Origin: Halomonas sp. TA22
GTDB taxonomy: Bacteria > Pseudomonadota > Gammaproteobacteria > Pseudomonadales > Halomonadaceae
DNA: 64,000 nt
Direction of reading: 5' to 3'
Assembly (NCBI RefSeq): GCF_013009075.1
Contig: NZ_CP053108.1
Location: 3,552,517-3,616,516 of the forward strand
A program made the position numbers and the translations under genes. Shown in pieces: positions 3,910 through 61,419 of the stretch. The first letter of the stretch is position 1; every line of letters starts with the position of its first letter. Under the pieces are notes generated by a model that made no database searches, was not told the DNA's origin, and saw nothing but the letters and a program-made list of their open reading frames with translations.

Positions 3910-4620
3910 CTAGGAGAGCGAATCGAAGAGCGAGCCGGCAGGAGCTGCCTTCACTCGCTTCTGGTCGCGCCGCGAGGCAAGCCGATCGGCCAGGCGCGTC
4001 GGTTCGGGCAGCTTGGTCTTGCCCAGGCAGCGCACCACCCATTCGATCGAGCTCTCCAGGCTAATGCGATGCCCCAGCGACACGAACACCGGCTTGACTT
4101 TCTCGCGGCTGCGCAGTGCAACGCCGATGGTCTCGCCGCGGTGACGCAGCGGTGTCCATCCGCCGCGCTGCTCGGGCACCTCGTCATGGCGACCGCACAG
4201 GATCGACTTGGCAACACCAATGGTCGGCAGATCGAGCCACAGCCCCAGGTGCGAGGCCACCCCCAACCGCCGTGGGTGGGCGATGCCCTGGCCGTCGACC
4301 ATCACCAGTTCAGGTGTCATGGAGAGCTTGGCGAACGCGTCGAGCGCGGCGGGAATCTCGCGAAACGACAGCAGCCCGGGGATATAGGGCATCCGCGTCG
4401 GCTCGCGGTGGACCACCTGCTCGAGCGGGGTGAGCGACGGCCAGTCGAGCAGCACCACTGCTGCGCGAGTGATCGTTCCCTCTTCCTCGAAACCGATATC
4501 CACCCCGGCAATGCGCGAGACGTTGCCGATCCGGTCCTCGCGCTCGATGCGCGGGGCCAGCTCGCGTTGCAGGGCAATTGCCGTTTCCGGCGTGGGCGTC
4601 CATTCATGCAGAGGCGTCAT
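3910..4620 (-). CDS. nfi: endonuclease V (deoxyinosine 3'-endonuclease)
   Basis: The 236-residue protein is a DNA repair enzyme that nicks DNA one base 3' of deoxyinosine, which arises by adenine deamination. The expected acidic metal ligands are present: Asp41 in A-G-V-D-I-G-F, Glu in P-Y-I-P-G-L-L-S-F-R-E, and Asp in M-V-D-G-Q-G-I-A-H-P-R-R-L-G. The T-I-G-V-A-K-S motif and the P-V-F-V-S-x-G-H end segment are also typical. It is transcribed divergently from sbcD, so two DNA-repair loci share an intergenic region of about 125 bp. Confidence 0.95.
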   Translation of the reverse strand: MTPLHEWTPTPETAIALQRELAPRIEREDRIGNVSRIAGVDIGFEEEGTITRAAVVLLDWPSLTPLEQVVHREPTRMPYIPGLLSFREIPAALDAFAKLSMTPELVMVDGQGIAHPRRLGVASHLGLWLDLPTIGVAKSILCGRHDEVPEQRGGWTPLRHRGETIGVALRSREKVKPVFVSLGHRISLESSIEWVVRCLGKTKLPEPTRLADRLASRRDQKRVKAAPAGSLFDSLS

Positions 4621-12583: not shown

Positions 12584-13834
12584 TCAGGAAGGTCTAGCGA
12601 CAGGCCGCGAATCAGAAGCCGCTTCTGTCATGACGGCATCGGCGACCATTTCCGCCGTGACCGCCGACAATGTCCATCCCAGGTGGCCATGGCCCGTGTT
12701 ATAGAACACGGTAGGGAGGCGCCCGCGCCCTACCCGCGGCATCATGTTCGGCATCATCGGCCTCAGGCCCGCCCAGGGAACGACCCGGCGCGTGCAGACT
12801 CCGGGGAAGCACTGCTCCACCCAATCGATCAACGGCCGGATCCGGTCTTCACGGATATCACGGTTGTTACCATTGAACTCCGCCGTCCCCGCGACTCGGA
12901 AACGCTCATCACCCAGGCGGCTCGTCACCAGCTTCGTCTCGTCATCCAGCAGACTTACCGTCGGCGCTGACTGGCGGCAGGAGGGACGGTCGAGGTGAAC
13001 CGTAATCGAGTACCCTTTGACCGGATAGATGTTGACGCGGTCTCCCAGTCGGGCAGCCAATGCCCGACTGACGACACCGGCACAGATCACGAGGCTATCG
13101 AAGGACTGATGCATCACCTCATTGCCATCATGGGAGGTGATCGTGGCGCCTTCCGAGTCGGCTCTGACATCGCGCACGTCATGCCCGTAGAGCGTGGTGA
13201 CTCCGTGGCGTTCAATGGCTGCTGCCAACCCATGGGTGAATTTGTGGATATCCCCCGTCGAGTCACTTTCGGTGAAGAAGCCACCGTAATAGTGGCCGGC
13301 CAGAGTCGGTTCGATGGCACGCATCTCCTCGGGTGTCACCGCCCGACGCTCAAGGCCACCTGCCGCGAGCAACCGGGACACCCGAGCCGCATGGTCGAAG
13401 CCGGCCTTGTCGCGGTAGATGTGCAAGATGCCCTGCCGCTTCAGATCGAAGTCGATGCTCTCATCCTTGGCCCACTGAAACAGATGGTCACGCGCGGCAA
13501 TCGCAAGCCGTGCCGTCTCGGCAGTGTTTTGCTCATAGCTGGGAATAGCTGCAATGAATTCGGCAAACCAACTGAGCTTGTGCCAGGAGGGCTTGGGATT
13601 GACCAGCAGCGGCGCATCACGACGCAGCATCCACTTGAGGCCCTTGATCACGGTAGGCCAATGCGTCCAGACCTCGGCATTCGAGGCTGACAATTGCCCA
13701 CCGTTGGCATAGGAGGTTTCCATGGCCGCGTAGCGATGCTTTTCGTACAGGGTGACCTGCAAGCCACGCTTGGCCAGGGTGTAGGCGGTGGTGACACCGG
13801 TGATGCCTCCACCGATAACGGCTACTCTTTTCAT
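12584..13834 (-). CDS. dadA: D-amino acid dehydrogenase family FAD oxidoreductase
   Basis: The 416-residue protein matches the DadA family of FAD-dependent dehydrogenases that deaminate D-amino acids to 2-oxo acids at the membrane. The N-terminus has the dinucleotide-binding G-G-G-I-T-G motif, followed by Y-E-K-H and the Y-A-N-G-G-Q-L-S-A-S-N-A segment typical of DadA. The C-terminal P-W-A-G-L-R-P-M-M-P and Y-N-T-G-H-G-H-L-G-W-T motifs complete the FAD site. A tandem glycine riboswitch lies in its 5' leader, which is unusual for dadA and points to glycine or a glycine-linked substrate. No alanine racemase gene is adjacent. The related glycine/sarcosine oxidase role is an alternative. Confidence 0.88.
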   Translation of the reverse strand: MKRVAVIGGGITGVTTAYTLAKRGLQVTLYEKHRYAAMETSYANGGQLSASNAEVWTHWPTVIKGLKWMLRRDAPLLVNPKPSWHKLSWFAEFIAAIPSYEQNTAETARLAIAARDHLFQWAKDESIDFDLKRQGILHIYRDKAGFDHAARVSRLLAAGGLERRAVTPEEMRAIEPTLAGHYYGGFFTESDSTGDIHKFTHGLAAAIERHGVTTLYGHDVRDVRADSEGATITSHDGNEVMHQSFDSLVICAGVVSRALAARLGDRVNIYPVKGYSITVHLDRPSCRQSAPTVSLLDDETKLVTSRLGDERFRVAGTAEFNGNNRDIREDRIRPLIDWVEQCFPGVCTRRVVPWAGLRPMMPNMMPRVGRGRLPTVFYNTGHGHLGWTLSAVTAEMVADAVMTEAASDSRPVARPS

Positions 13835-13888
13835 CGTAATCTCCAGGGACGTCGGGTTCTGCTACCCATCGAGATGACAGGCAGCACC

Positions 13889-14086
13889 CCTTCCGTCATG
13901 GAACCTGAGAGATTCACGTGCTGCCTTGGAGGCGGCCGCTTGCTCCTTCGGTGTGCCGACGGACGCTGACGCCGGCAACTCTTCGGAATGGTCTGGTGAT
14001 AGCGGTCCTTTTGCCTGAGAGGTTCCGGGGCTGTTGCTCCTTCGGCGTCGCTTTCACCGATCGGTGAAACGATCTCTCCCACTATC
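13889..14086 (-). promoter_or_regulatory. tandem glycine riboswitch upstream of dadA-like gene
   Basis: Read on the minus strand, the leader begins GUGGGAGAG near 14085. It then shows the glycine-aptamer core GCCGAAGGAGCAAC and, about 15 nt later, CCUCUCAGGCAAAAGGAC. A second copy follows with ACACCGAAGGAGCAAGC and AAUCUCUCAGGUUCC, ending near 13889. The two cores, each followed by CUCUCAGG, are the hallmark of the tandem glycine riboswitch. It ends about 55 bases before the dadA start. No U-run terminator follows the second aptamer, so control of translation is more likely than attenuation. Confidence 0.9.
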
Positions 14087-14178
14087 ACGTGCAATGGAAC
14101 TACTATCGCGCGCCTAGACATCATAAAGAAAATATCAATAATGAATGGCAGCTATCTAATTCCGGTATCGATCTGCGT

Positions 14179-37135: not shown

Positions 37136-37255
37136 CTTTCGCTCATTCCCCAAACGGCCGACATCGTCTCTCGCATGCAAGCCTACCACTACGGCACGCT
37201 AAAGCAGGCGATATCTCGAACGCCTGCCCCTTCCTGGCCCACCCGGCGAGCCGCA

Positions 37256-37272
37256 CGCACCAAAGTGTGACG
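37256..37272. promoter_or_regulatory. weak NtrC-like site upstream of narK
   Basis: CGCACCAAAGTGTGACG agrees with the NtrC consensus at about 11 of 17 positions, mainly in its left half (GCACCAAA). It lies about 90 bp upstream of the sigma-54 element, a suitable enhancer distance. It is offered only as a candidate. Confidence 0.3.
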
Positions 37273-37336
37273 ATCTTCTCGGGGCACGCGCCGGAATGAT
37301 TTTCTAGTCAAATGATTTTCTGGAAAAAACCAAGAC

Positions 37337-37353
37337 TTGGCAAGGGAGTTGCT
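37337..37353 (+). promoter_or_regulatory. sigma-54 promoter element of narK
   Basis: TTGGCAAGGGAGTTGCT matches the -24/-12 consensus with GG (37339-37340) and GC (37351-37352) 12 bases apart and a full TTGCT block. The expected transcription start is near 37364, leaving a leader of about 115 nt before the narK ATG. Confidence 0.75.
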
Positions 37354-37419
37354 TATAACCGGTAGTGGTGACTGACGTGGACCAGGCCCCTTCCGGGAGC
37401 ACGAGTGCGTCAGACCAGA

Positions 37420-37435
37420 CCTTCAATGGCGAAGG
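37420..37435 (+). promoter_or_regulatory. hexaloop hairpin in narK leader (candidate NasT/ANTAR target)
   Basis: CCTTC and GAAGG form a perfect 5-bp stem around a six-base loop AATGGC. The same loop sequence occurs in the leader of the flavoprotein-nirB operon. An upstream stem (CTGACG 37372-37377 with CGTCAG 37408-37413) could supply the second hairpin usual for ANTAR targets. No intrinsic terminator follows. Confidence 0.5.
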
Positions 37436-37478
37436 CCCGTGATCGTGAGTTCCATTGTCACTCGACGAGGCTATTCCC

Positions 37479-38834
37479 ATGGAAATCCGCAACAAGGCCA
37501 ACAGGATCCGCCTGTTCAGCTTCAACACCCCGCAGATGCGCGCCTTCCACCTCTCCTGGTTCGCCTTTCACATCTGCTTCTTCGGCTGGTTCGGTATCGC
37601 TCCCCTGATGGCGGTGGTACGCGAAGACCTCAGCCTGACCCAGGCGCAAATCGGCAACACCATCATCGCCTCGGTGCTGATCACCGTCATCGTCCGCCTG
37701 TTGATCGGTGTACTGTGCGACCGCATCGGTCCGCGCCTGGCCTACACCTGGCTGCTCTGCCTCGGTTCGCTGCCGGTGATCAGCATCGCCTTCGTTTCGA
37801 GCTTCGAGGGTTTCTTCCTGGCGCGCCTGGCCATCGGTGCCATCGGCGCCTCCTTCGTCATTACCCAGTATCACACCACCATGATGTTCGCCCCCAATGT
37901 GGTGGGCACCGCCAATGCCACCTCGGCGGGCTGGGGCAACCTGGGCGGGGGCACCACCCAGATCCTGATGCCGCTGATCTTCTCGGGCCTGCTGATGCTC
38001 GGCGTCAATGAAGCGTTCGGCTGGCGGCTGGCCATGGTGGTCCCCGGTGTGGTGCTGTTCCTGACCGGTATCGCCTACTACTTCCTGACCCAGGATGCCC
38101 CCGACGGCAACTTCAGCGAGCTGCGCGCACGCGGCGAGCTACCCCCCGCCGCCAAGGGCAGAGGCAAGGGCTCGGGCAGCTTCATGGATGCCGCCCGCGA
38201 TATCCGCGTCTGGGCGCTGTTCGTGGTCTACGCCATCTGCTTCGGCGTCGAGCTGACCATCAACAACATCGCCGCCATCTACTTCTTCGATCACTTCGAC
38301 CTGACGCTGGCCACCGCTGGCCTGATCGCCGGCCTGTTCGGGATGATGAACCTCTTCGCGCGCACCCTAGGGGGCGTCTTCTCGGATTTGTTCGCCAAGA
38401 ACTGGGGGCTCAAGGGGCGCGTGCGCTGGCTGTTCATCGCCCTAGTGTGCGAAGGCATCGCCCTGATGTTCTTCTCGCAGATGCGCGTGCTGACCATGGC
38501 GATCGGCATCATGCTGGTTTTCAGCCTGTTCGTGCAGATGGCCGAAGGTGCCACCTACGGCGTGGTGCCCTTCATCAACAAGAAGGCGCTGGGCGCCGTG
38601 GCCGGGATCGTCGGGGCCGGCGGTAACGTCGGCGCCGTGGCGGCCGCCTTCCTGTTCCGCTCGGAAGCGATCACCTATCAGCAAGGGCTGTTCTATCTTG
38701 GCTTTACCGTGCTGGTACTCGCCAGTTGTGCGCTACTGGTACGCTTCTCTCCCGAAGAGGAGGCCGAAGAGGCCGCCGCCTTCCAGGAGGCGGTGGGTGA
38801 CGACACCGGTGCCGGAGCCCTCTCGCTACGCTAG
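37479..38834 (+). CDS. narK: nitrate/nitrite MFS transporter (NarK/NasA type)
   Basis: The 451-residue membrane protein is a nitrate/nitrite porter with about 12 helices. Family marks include the first-helix F-H-L-S-W-F-A-F-H-I-C-F-F-G-W-F-G-I-A-P-L (within residues 24-45), a C-D-R-I-G-P-R loop, and the nitrate signature segments N-A-T-S-A-G-W-G-N-L-G-G-G and G-A-G-G-N-V-G-A-V. GAGG eight bases upstream fixes ATG 37479. It probably supplies nitrate to the NasA-NirB pathway encoded about 20 kb away. Its sigma-54 element and hexaloop hairpin suggest it is co-regulated with that cluster. Strong terminator at 38854. Confidence 0.94.
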   Translation: MEIRNKANRIRLFSFNTPQMRAFHLSWFAFHICFFGWFGIAPLMAVVREDLSLTQAQIGNTIIASVLITVIVRLLIGVLCDRIGPRLAYTWLLCLGSLPVISIAFVSSFEGFFLARLAIGAIGASFVITQYHTTMMFAPNVVGTANATSAGWGNLGGGTTQILMPLIFSGLLMLGVNEAFGWRLAMVVPGVVLFLTGIAYYFLTQDAPDGNFSELRARGELPPAAKGRGKGSGSFMDAARDIRVWALFVVYAICFGVELTINNIAAIYFFDHFDLTLATAGLIAGLFGMMNLFARTLGGVFSDLFAKNWGLKGRVRWLFIALVCEGIALMFFSQMRVLTMAIGIMLVFSLFVQMAEGATYGVVPFINKKALGAVAGIVGAGGNVGAVAAAFLFRSEAITYQQGLFYLGFTVLVLASCALLVRFSPEEEAEEAAAFQEAVGDDTGAGALSLR

Positions 38835-59597: not shown

Positions 59598-60191
59598 ATG
59601 CCCTCACCGCTGAAAGTTCTTCTGGTCGACGACGAGCCCGTGCGTGCCGCCATGGTCGAAGAGGCGCTGATGAGCGAAGGCCATCAGGTGATCTGCCATC
59701 TGACCACTCCCGCCAGCCTCAACGCCATGGTCGCCCGGCATCAGCCCGACGTGGTGATCATTGACATGGAATCCCCCGACCGCGACACGCTGGACAGCAT
59801 GGCGCTGCTCAATCGCGAGAACCCGCGCCCGGTGGTGTTCTTCGCCGACCAGCACGACCCCGACACCATGCAGGCGGCGCTCAAGGCCGGCGTCAGCGCC
59901 TATGTGGTCGATGGCCTGATACAGGGCCGGGTCAAGGCGATCATCGAGGTCGCCATCGCGCGTTTCGATTCGTTCCAGTCGATGCGCAGCGAACTCGACA
60001 AGGCACGCAACCAGCTCACCGAGCGCAAGCGCATCGAACGTGCCAAGGGGCTGTTGATGAAGCACCAGAGCTGCGACGAAGAGCAGGCCTACCGGATGCT
60101 GCGCAAGATCGCCATGGACCGCGGCCAACGCATTTCCGAGGTCGCCGAAAGCGTCATCGATATTCTCGAACGTCTGGAGAAAGGTATATGA
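59598..60191 (+). CDS. nasT: ANTAR domain response regulator NasT
   Basis: The 197-residue protein has an N-terminal receiver-like domain (D11-D12 and D56 in V-V-I-I-D-M-E-S) and a C-terminal ANTAR RNA-binding domain (from about residue 135: R-K-R-I-E-R-A-K-G-L-L-M-K-H-Q-S-C-D-E-E-Q-A-Y-R). NasT binds leader hairpins and prevents transcription termination of nitrate assimilation genes when nitrate releases it from NasS. It is divergent from nasA and overlaps nasS by ATGA. The order nasT-nasS is the reverse of the commonly described nasS-nasT. Confidence 0.95.
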   Translation: MPSPLKVLLVDDEPVRAAMVEEALMSEGHQVICHLTTPASLNAMVARHQPDVVIIDMESPDRDTLDSMALLNRENPRPVVFFADQHDPDTMQAALKAGVSAYVVDGLIQGRVKAIIEVAIARFDSFQSMRSELDKARNQLTERKRIERAKGLLMKHQSCDEEQAYRMLRKIAMDRGQRISEVAESVIDILERLEKGI

Positions 60192-61210
60192 AAGCCCTGC
60201 CACCCCCCGAGCTTCAGCGCGTGCAACTAGGCTTCGTGCCACTGCTCGACTGTGCCCTGCTGGTAATTGCCCGCGAACAGGGCTTCTTCGCCGAGCAGGG
60301 GCTGGATGTGGTGCTGTGCCGACAGAACGCCTGGTCGACGCTGCGCGACAAGGTCGCCGCCGGCCTGCTCGATGGCGGCCAGATGCTCGCCCCCCTGCCA
60401 CTGGCCATGACCCTGGGGCTCGGCAGCGAGCCCTGCAAGACCCTGGCGGCGCTCAACCTGAGCCGCAACGGCAACGCCATCGTGCTCAGCCAGGCCCTGG
60501 CCGAGCGCGCGAATGCCGGCTACTCGGACGAGCCCGCCGCCAGCGCCCGTGCGCTGGGTGGCTACCTGCTGCGCGGGACACCCGAGCGCCCTCCGCGCCT
60601 GGCGATGGTGCACCCGCACTCCTGCCAGCACTATCAATTGCGCCAGTGGCTGGACCTGGGCGAGATCGATCCACAGCGCGACGTGGAGCTCGCGGTCATG
60701 CCGCCGCCGCGCATGGTCGAGGCGATGCAGCGCGGTGAGATCGACGGCTTCTGCGTGGGCGAGCCCTGGGGTACCCTGGCCGAGGCGCGCCACACCGGGC
60801 GGATCGTCGCGACCGGCGCCCAGCTGTGGCCCGACCATCCCGAGAAGGTGCTGGGCGTGACACGCCGCTGGGCCGAGCGCTACCCGGCCACGCTCTGCCA
60901 CCTGATCCGCGCACTGCACTACGCAAGCCAATGGCTTGCGCTCGACCCAAGCCACCTGCGTCAGGCGCGTGACTGGCTGGCCCTGCCCCCCTATCTCGAC
61001 CGCTCGGTAGAGCATCTCGATCACCTGCCACTGGGCGAGGCGCCACTGCTGCAGCGCATGTGCGGCACCGACATGCTGCGCCCCGAGGCCAGCGCCATGC
61101 AGCGCTTCGCCACACAGATGCTGTCCGCCGCATCGCCGACCCTGGCCGAGCATGACACGCTTGAGACCTGCTACAGTCCCGTGCATTACGACACCGCCAC
61201 GCACCACTAA
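60188..61210 (+). CDS. nasS: nitrate sensor protein NasS
   Basis: The 340-residue protein resembles the nitrate-binding NrtA/NasS group but has no signal peptide, so it is cytoplasmic. Typical parts are L-G-F-V-P-L-L-D-C-A-L-L-V-I-A-R-E-Q-G-F-F, the W-S-T-L-R-D-K-V-A-A-G-L-L-D-G-G-Q-M-L-A segment and G-F-C-V-G-E-P-W-G. NasS holds NasT inactive until nitrate is bound. The 4-bp overlap with nasT suggests matched production. Its last codons contain the NtrC-like site for the next operon. Confidence 0.94.
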   Translation: MKALPPPELQRVQLGFVPLLDCALLVIAREQGFFAEQGLDVVLCRQNAWSTLRDKVAAGLLDGGQMLAPLPLAMTLGLGSEPCKTLAALNLSRNGNAIVLSQALAERANAGYSDEPAASARALGGYLLRGTPERPPRLAMVHPHSCQHYQLRQWLDLGEIDPQRDVELAVMPPPRMVEAMQRGEIDGFCVGEPWGTLAEARHTGRIVATGAQLWPDHPEKVLGVTRRWAERYPATLCHLIRALHYASQWLALDPSHLRQARDWLALPPYLDRSVEHLDHLPLGEAPLLQRMCGTDMLRPEASAMQRFATQMLSAASPTLAEHDTLETCYSPVHYDTATHH

Positions 61211-61320: not shown

Positions 61321-61337
61321 ACACTAGCCTACCATGG

Positions 61338-61353
61338 CGATCAATGGCGATCG
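61338..61353 (+). promoter_or_regulatory. hexaloop hairpin in leader (candidate NasT target)
   Basis: CGATC pairs with GATCG around the hexaloop AATGGC, which has A at position 1 and G at position 4 as reported for ANTAR targets. The same loop occurs upstream of narK. A weaker stem TCGTC/GACGA (61351-61368) follows and would overlap it by three bases. Confidence 0.6.
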
Positions 61354-61368
61354 TCCTAGACATGACGA

Positions 61369-61419
61369 AGACGTCTCACACTTCCCGGACAAGCGGGAAG
61401 TGGCGAGGCGTCTTTTTTT
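61369..61419 (+). terminator. leader terminator (attenuator) upstream of the flavoprotein-nirB operon
   Basis: AGACGTCTC (61369-61377) pairs with GAGGCGTCT (61405-61413), and inside it ACTTCCCG pairs with CGGGAAGT. Seven T residues follow (61413-61419). It lies about 30 bp before the first gene, in its leader. Confidence 0.92.

Follow-up and report, generated by a model that had tools for sequence, protein, structure and literature searches.

A terminator-free narK leader in Halomonadaceae that carries a conserved structured RNA element and a single ANTAR-type hexaloop hairpin

ANTAR proteins are mainly known as terminator antagonists that act on two hexaloops, and in the nirBD leader of Pseudomonas aeruginosa transcription driven by sigma-54 and NtrC is joined to antitermination by NasT. 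As far as the available parts of the following sources go, SELEX with NasR gave a signature of A1 and G4 in a loop closed by a C:G pair, and binding by NasR was some twelve times weaker with a single hairpin than with a pair (PMC7496416). A structural study of EutV and its RNA redefined the minimal ANTAR target as one hexaloop, and EutV bound isolated single hexaloops (PMC8934654); by that account, one hexaloop would be sufficient in principle for the leader described here. The paper that defined the motif foresaw outputs other than termination, e.g., translation initiation (PMC3369931), and translational control by ANTAR proteins has since been described in actinobacteria (PMC8164766). For Bradyrhizobium, the accessible sections of one study predicted a hairpin recognisable by NasT before narK; in a nasT mutant narK was raised under denitrifying conditions, and a fall under nitrate assimilation was found in another group's study (PMC6759348). 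Across Halomonas, the available part of one study described NasR and NasST as almost mutually exclusive, with some species having both (PMC8014003).

The window analysed here, a stretch of 64,000 nucleotides from Halomonas sp. TA22, contains a narK gene with a leader of approximately 115 nt, given a transcription start predicted near position 37364 from the sigma-54 element (Table 1). The product scored 305.2 bits against TIGR00886, slightly under the cut-off of 311.7. The element TTGGCAAGGGAGTTGCT matched the sigma-54 consensus at 11 of 12 scored positions; a -24/-12 element with a score of at least 9 was found upstream of 82 of 100 narK orthologues, compared with 2 of 100 shuffled stretches, and the promoter is presumably under nitrogen control. 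The sigma-54 element and the hairpin CCTTC-AATGGC-GAAGG (hereafter P3) had both been reported in a first-pass annotation of the window, and were read directly at exactly the positions claimed. That annotation had also reported the lack of a terminator before narK, which was confirmed: no intrinsic terminator or terminator-like site was found between 37200 and 37600, and a T run longer than four between domain 1 (see below) and the start codon occurred in none of 81 related narK leaders. The hairpin had been put forward as the feature of this leader; it is real and conserved, but it is only one part, and a separate 5' domain, the most conserved component, had been overlooked. Half-sites resembling those of NtrC (GCRCCA/TGGYGC) were enriched in the 220-nt stretches upstream of the 100 narK genes (1.66 per stretch compared with 0.36 expected).

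Table 1. Features of the narK locus and of the nasT-nasS region in the window
Feature	Position	Strand	Basis or remark
Sigma-54 (-24/-12) promoter element TTGGCAAGGGAGTTGCT	37337-37353	+	Direct reading; element recurs before orthologues
Domain 1, structured RNA element near the transcript 5' end	37374-37411	+	Conservation, covariation, covariance model
Domain 1, P1 helix	37374-37379 with 37406-37411	+	
Domain 1, P2 hairpin	37386-37400	+	Bulged here: only 2 consecutive pairs from the base
P3, ANTAR-type hairpin CCUUC-AAUGGC-GAAGG (C:G closing pair, A1, G4)	37420-37435	+	
CACTCG, complement of domain 1 CGAGUG	37459-37464	+	Short counterpart of the pre-Shine-Dalgarno strand
Shine-Dalgarno sequence of narK (GAGG), 8 nt upstream of its ATG	37467-37470	+	Predicted mostly paired in the default fold
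narK, MFS nitrate/nitrite transporter	37479-38834	+	MFS_1 domain; TIGR00886 match
nasT, response-regulator ANTAR protein, candidate trans-acting factor	59598-60191	+	
nasS, NMT1-type binding protein, presumed NasT partner	60188-61210	+	
Second AATGGC hairpin, CGATC-AATGGC-GATCG, in the flavoprotein/NirB-like leader	61338-61353	+	
Intrinsic terminator of the flavoprotein/NirB-like leader	61367-61419	+	Counterpart missing from the narK leader

A search for narK in 151 Halomonadaceae genomes yielded matches at E <= 0.001 in 123 of them; the 100 leaders considered were those of all orthologues among these, the remaining matches being distant transporters (G136, with a broken narK, was excluded and G081, a fragment, was included). 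As a sequence pattern, domain 1 consisted of GRCGURGACCAG, a short hairpin and ACGAGUGCGYC, and was present upstream of narK in 81 of the 100 orthologues. A covariance model (R1), built from 27 narK leaders, matched 86 of the 151 genomes at E <= 0.1 and 81 at E <= 3.4e-4; the latter were identical to the 81 genomes identified by the pattern, spanned 14 genera, and in every one the match lay just upstream of narK. Four further weak matches in the family were situated elsewhere, of which two were the copies in genus g17 and two look like chance. The window's leader scored 75.9 bits (E = 8e-13) and was the sole credible match in its genome; the next matches there (24.2 and 14.8 bits) read as coding and were rejected as further copies. 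Domain 1 began 16-25 nt past the best -12 match in 70 of the 81 leaders, i.e., near the 5' end of the transcript.

A pattern scan of genome contigs returned at least 80 loci, after which 19 were judged to be chance and removed before cores and named copies were counted (14 following inspection of the sequence, and L149, L152, L162, L164 and L221 on title and match length alone); viral contigs gave two matches. Named records with the element included Halomonas, Vreelandella, Billgrantia, Chromohalobacter, Cobetia, Litchfieldella, Onishia and Modicisalibacter, which identifies the family as Halomonadaceae. Halomonas elongata was among the species represented (L220). Among the matches listed, 51 of 62 named copies passed an automatic test for narK; the other 11 comprised seven that were narK by eye, three that the script had read in the wrong frame, and one at the end of its locus. 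In Halomonas ramblicola (L197), tandem narK paralogues each had their own domain 1 and A1/G4 hairpin (motif copies at 3987 and 5630).

Outside the Halomonadaceae, the element preceded narK in Arhodomonas aquaeolei and Ectothiorhodospiraceae bacterium WFHF3C12, and was adjoined in both by a divergent nasT, confirmed by its domain in WFHF3C12 and by eye in A. aquaeolei. In two genomes without this narK (G016 and G036), domain 1 stood before a NarU/NarK-type transporter divergent from nasT, with nasS downstream of nasT in G016. Under stricter filters, which lose weak matches, R1 matched 8 of 293 genomes in an order-level sample, all of them Halomonadaceae, of which that sample held few. Under similarly strict filters, with the same loss of weak matches, it matched 8 of 369 in a class-level sample; two of these were Halomonadaceae and G631, an Arhodomonas sequence, was real, and five weak matches were rejected because they read as coding. 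No Rfam 15 family matched positions 37200-37500 at E values up to 10, and six related leaders gave only chance-level Rfam matches, all under the gathering scores. The literature searched, whose coverage leaves most subscription journals outside, contained no description of the narK element.

The 3' strand of domain 1 together with the linker that follows (ACGAGUGCGUC-GAAC in the most frequent version) is complementary, in order, to a strand ahead of the Shine-Dalgarno sequence, GUUCGA...CACUCG. This pre-Shine-Dalgarno strand was longer in most related leaders and weak in that of the window. Pairing of the GUUCGA element alone with the linker was seen in many genera but was weak (13 of 84 at 10 or fewer of 200 shuffles), and the longer helix was therefore examined. 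Its duplex energy, when compared with shuffled tails, gave a mean z of -1.23 (standard error 0.23, 14 genera), against z values of 0.31 and -0.04, i.e., no gain, for two control strands; the partner of CGAGUG was present in 56 of 81 tails, against 17.9 expected. When at most four leaders per genus were folded without constraints, 13 of 14 genera showed approximately 8-14 expected pairs in the helix between the domain 1 3' strand and the pre-Shine-Dalgarno strand, more than with shuffled tails (p = 0.0001); in 12 of 14, the domain 1 5' strand paired with the Shine-Dalgarno/start region above shuffled strands (p = 0.0003). On average, the default fold and the domain 1 state differed by 9.1 kcal/mol, compared with 5.0 kcal/mol when the pre-Shine-Dalgarno strand was shuffled (p = 0.0002; at most three leaders per genus, with AGACC-linker leaders left out). 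In both the fold-pairing and the energy-gap tests the shuffles preserve base composition only, and the genus-level tests treat genera as independent samples, which they are not fully.

Comparison of own with swapped partners across 27 representatives gave p = 0.0015 for the strand plus linker and p = 0.0066 for a shorter version; for the linker alone the value was 0.097 and for a control strand 0.22. By raw rank, a leader's own tail was only slightly better than the tails of other species (mean rank fraction 0.43). The linker was other than GRAC in 14 of the 27. For six of these, few tails from other leaders, or none, equalled the leader's own tail in pairing (L169, 0 of 26; G149, 0 of 23; L190, 1 of 26; G141, 1 of 23; G096 and G108, 3 of 25 each), three were intermediate (G031, 7 of 25; G012, 10 of 26; G090, 12 of 25) and five were poor (G000, 19 of 26; G010, 20 of 23; G009, 23 of 26; G062, 23 of 24; G016, 24 of 26). 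These computations support a bistable narK leader, in which the two halves of domain 1 would pair alternatively with the pre-Shine-Dalgarno strand and the start region.

The reading preferred here, for which a probability of roughly 0.45 seems appropriate, is that narK has a composite leader with a ribosome-site mask in its default fold, and that NasT, acting on P3, opens narK translation. Comparison of the leaders shows, downstream of the sigma-54 promoter, a conserved 5' domain (P1, an internal loop and P2), a single P3 and a pre-Shine-Dalgarno strand, with no terminator. By default, the 3' half of domain 1 and the linker would in most relatives pair with the pre-Shine-Dalgarno strand to form a long nested hairpin, and the 5' half thus freed would pair with the Shine-Dalgarno/start region; in the alternative state, domain 1 and P3 would fold on themselves and release the ribosome region. 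The binding of NasT, like the sign and output of narK control, is something that we infer: nitrate or nitrite would free NasT from NasS, and NasT would bind P3, perhaps along with domain 1, during transcription, such that the open state is held and narK is translated. Since P3 can form in both states in most relatives, its stabilisation alone would not select a state. What the leader suggests is a switch for nitrate uptake that works by uncovering the start of the message and not by halting transcription.

The leader in the window departs from the majority switch, and its modelled accessibility barely rises (from 0.19 to 0.22). It is one of nine leaders with an AGACC linker (the window and eight other species), in which the long hairpin is not formed and the ribosome site has P3 sequence as its partner (2-10 expected pairs, with 10 in the window); forcing P1 of domain 1 to form in these leaders takes just 0.6-2.5 kcal/mol. 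G146 behaves in the same way despite a GGACC linker. Domain 1 would here be cheap to form, the mask being supplied by P3 instead, and holding P3 closed would compete directly with that mask, which would be the closest analogue of classical ANTAR action. Masking of the Shine-Dalgarno sequence by P3 as a universal arrangement was rejected, being confined to the nine AGACC-linker leaders and G146 among the 81.

All but one (G090) of the 81 genomes with domain 1 were found to have an ANTAR gene. Three kinds were distinguished: a NasT like that of the window, located 5-49 kb from narK in the 32 genomes that had both on one contig; a more distant NasT, approximately 40% identical, mostly directly beside narK; and NasR-like proteins of approximately 420-500 residues near narK, of which one (in L032) was verified as NasR by its NIT and ANTAR domains and the others were named from ORF length and an ANTAR match. 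Domain 1 was missing from 19 narK leaders; 15 of them combined an ANTAR gene with a terminator-like leader, and four, all of genus g16, had neither leader type nor a detected ANTAR gene. At least two A1/G4 hexaloop hairpins were present in 14 of the 15, the fifteenth (G119) having a run of N at that place. The terminator-like end was GCCGTT, which on inspection looks like a hairpin's 3' arm, and the T run was interrupted in three g16 leaders. Such leaders occurred in genera g4, g8 and part of g16 (e.g., G003, G007 and G015), with the ANTAR gene mostly just upstream of narK. Within g16 all states were represented: domain 1 with a NasT-like gene (two), a hexaloop/terminator-like leader with a longer ANTAR gene (three), and neither (four). 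Therefore, two architectures serve narK within the Halomonadaceae.

When the transcribed narK leader of the window was scanned for a tandem second hexaloop (from 400 nt upstream, with stems of at least 4 bp), P3 alone qualified; two other 4-bp hexaloop matches both lay upstream of the predicted start. A second A1/G4 hexaloop hidden in domain 1 was considered and rejected, the candidate loops having A at position 4. No hexaloop hairpin overlapping an intrinsic terminator was found in the window's leader or in the 81 leaders. With tandem hexaloops and an overlapping terminator both absent, the narK leader is not a member of the classical dual-hexaloop class of attenuators; in its manner of working it is probably like one, in that the action would resemble ANTAR antitermination but the structure excluded would be a ribosome-site mask, not a terminator.

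Like the NasR-nasF and EutV-eutP leaders, that of narK precedes a nitrogen gene, has an A1/G4 hexaloop with a C:G closing pair, and is accompanied in the genome by an ANTAR protein whose gene often adjoins it; whereas those leaders combine a dual hexaloop with an overlapping terminator, narK has one hexaloop, no terminator and an extra 5' domain facing the predicted mask. NasS-NasT of Paracoccus and Bradyrhizobium, in the accessible portions of those accounts, is similarly encoded in the same genome as its nitrogen-gene targets, but is discussed as an antitermination system, and domain 1 is not mentioned in those portions. The actinobacterial target RNAs share translation as the proposed output, but, according to the available part of the description, have a dual stem-loop overlapping the ribosome site and are repressed by the activated ANTAR protein (PMC8164766), whereas in narK one distant hexaloop and activation are proposed. 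The P3 hexaloop ends at least 31 nt before the start codon across the leaders (43 nt in the window). The attenuator of the sister genera concerns the same gene, bacterial family and kind of regulator, but has at least two A1/G4 hexaloops and a terminator-like hairpin, and no domain 1.

The first-pass annotation had suggested a dispersed ANTAR regulon with an unusual output. A dispersed regulon whose output is not read-through is still the best reading, because the hexaloop is conserved (69 of 81 leaders), ANTAR genes are present (80 of 81 genomes) and there is no terminator, although the hairpin accounts for only part of the leader. A site with one hexaloop is less odd than had been claimed, since a single hexaloop is the minimal target in the sections available of PMC8934654, and non-terminator outputs had been proposed or reported in those of PMC3369931 and PMC8164766. 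A conserved, single-hexaloop, terminator-free leader with a structured RNA would show that the same regulator can be wired to another output in Gram-negative bacteria; the sister genera with the hexaloop/terminator version, and the species without hexaloop or regulator, would be its natural controls. A broader proposal is offered tentatively, as somewhat doubtful: domain 1 would be an undescribed RNA sensor (a candidate new one in nitrate metabolism) or a new ANTAR recognition module that, with one hexaloop, gates narK translation by strand exchange. Nitrogen status through sigma-54, nitrate through NasST or NasR, and an RNA switch would then be joined in a leader of approximately 115 nt, one that is swapped with a hexaloop/terminator attenuator in the same family.

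In genomes that do have an ANTAR gene, domain 1 occurred without an A1/G4 hexaloop in 12 of the 81 leaders (nine in g2, one in g10 and two in g16), and likewise in both g17 leaders, which precede another NarK-type transporter. Domain 1 must therefore matter without the hexaloop, and it might be a metabolite aptamer, i.e., a riboswitch that senses nitrate, nitrite or a compound reporting nitrogen status and acts on its own through the pre-Shine-Dalgarno strand, with NasT and P3 as a separate, optional layer. The leader of G090, without a detected ANTAR gene, is consistent with this, as is the likeness of the strand-exchange layout to a riboswitch expression platform. As in the definition of translational riboswitches, domain 1 is a conserved domain with covarying helices. 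By the predicted folds, one of its strands could be claimed by an alternative helix near the Shine-Dalgarno sequence, although the gain in accessibility does not exceed that of controls and this pairing is absent from the window's own leader; the narK element differs in including a candidate protein-binding hairpin, and no ligand is known. As in aptamers, P2 covaries but the internal loop is invariant on either strand (GACCAG and ACGAG), but this invariance is partly built in by the search pattern, though pattern and covariance model chose the same 81 genomes. An aptamer is nonetheless considered unlikely: wherever checked, domain 1 stands before narK or a NarU/NarK-type transporter, an ANTAR-independent sensor would render the almost universal ANTAR gene superfluous, and the hexaloop is kept in most lineages, the distant Ectothiorhodospiraceae included. 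In g2 leaders (L129, L124, L116 and others), the P3 stem CCTTC/GAAGG was kept and the loop had shrunk to 3-5 nt of varying sequence; this stem may serve some purpose other than binding an ANTAR protein.

Translation is also not the sole output to be considered for a strand exchange. The leader could govern Rho-dependent termination or mRNA decay, with the long hairpin and the free strands setting the access of Rho or RNase E and NasT tipping the balance, which would accord with the lack of an intrinsic terminator. In g11, g2 and similar genera, pairing stopped well upstream of the start codon. For 10 of 13 genera the open state was predicted to make the ribosome site more accessible, but the gain was not above that with shuffled pre-Shine-Dalgarno strands (0.102 compared with 0.085, p = 0.27), and accessibility of the Shine-Dalgarno sequence alone was mixed, changing by more than 0.1 upwards in 20 and downwards in 33 of the 81 leaders. 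Against this, 12 of 14 genera have a domain 1 5' strand that pairs with the Shine-Dalgarno/start region above shuffled strands, a result that points to translation, and control through Rho or decay is regarded as improbable.

The significance of P3 derives from its conservation. In the window it has the hexanucleotide loop, A1, G4 and C:G closing pair of ANTAR hairpins, but A1/G4 hexaloop hairpins with stems of at least 5 bp numbered 14 in the window on both strands together, and thus the narK hairpin alone is not beyond chance. The earlier annotation had allowed that the shared loop was coincidental, and had proposed conservation in related species as a check; when this was carried out the hairpin proved to be conserved, and chance was not borne out, A1 and G4 with the C:G closing pair being kept in the 69 leaders while positions 3, 5 and 6 vary. 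Different stems also retained the loop, i.e., CCTC/GAGG in g7 and TTCCTC/GAGGAA in one of the Ectothiorhodospiraceae. A plain conserved leader without ANTAR function, in which the AATGGC loop is coincidental and selection acts on domain 1 or the promoter only, could appeal to the frequency of such hairpins and to a P3 stem that varies little, such that pairing there is weakly tested; given the constancy of the loop, and the two or more A1/G4 hexaloops in 14 of the 19 leaders without domain 1, it is very improbable.

Covariation was observed in both P1 and P2, the inner helix. Over 82 distinct cores among the matches listed, the pairs from the base of P2 were G-U/G-C/A-U, then C-G/U-A, U-A/C-G/U-G and C-G/U-A/U-G, the third and fourth positions being paired in 81 and 78 cores respectively. 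An alignment of 58 sequences, fitted to the very structure under test, had six pairs in which both partners changed, where the figure for shuffles was 2.9 and 2 of 500 reached six; 99.5% of cells were paired, against at most 52.9% with slid partners. In an unfitted alignment of 27 sequences, 99.0% of cells were paired and the covariation score was above all 500 shuffles, with no excess of doubly changed pairs (2 against 1.7 in shuffles). In 28 of 81 leaders the P2 insert had a length not divisible by three; it follows that the stretch is not coding, and a leader peptide was rejected on this ground. Judged from the aligned sequences, domain 1 acts as RNA, and a DNA-level operator or coding leader peptide, suggested only by the closeness of the stretch downstream of the promoter, is contradicted by the compensatory changes in P2 as well as by these insert lengths and scarcely deserves credence.

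The same AATGGC loop had been reported in the leader of a flavoprotein/NirB-like gene, and it was indeed found there, followed by a strong terminator (fold of -58.7 kcal/mol compared with a shuffled mean of -34.9); these were the only two AATGGC hairpins in the window with stems of at least 5 bp. In the predicted fold of that leader (61336-61419), hairpin and terminator did not overlap, being 5 nt apart, and the hairpin preceding the AATGGC hairpin was without a hexanucleotide loop; therefore, dual-hexaloop antitermination is not obvious there. The second ANTAR protein of the genome (L002, G000:C1:235717-235872, minus strand) had neighbours resembling substrate-binding proteins, as in AmiC/AmiR (a label given by eye). 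Elsewhere in the window, tandem glycine riboswitch aptamers (RF00504, 63.9 and 51 bits) were identified at 13883-14091 on the minus strand, upstream of an ORF at 12584-13834 on the same strand.
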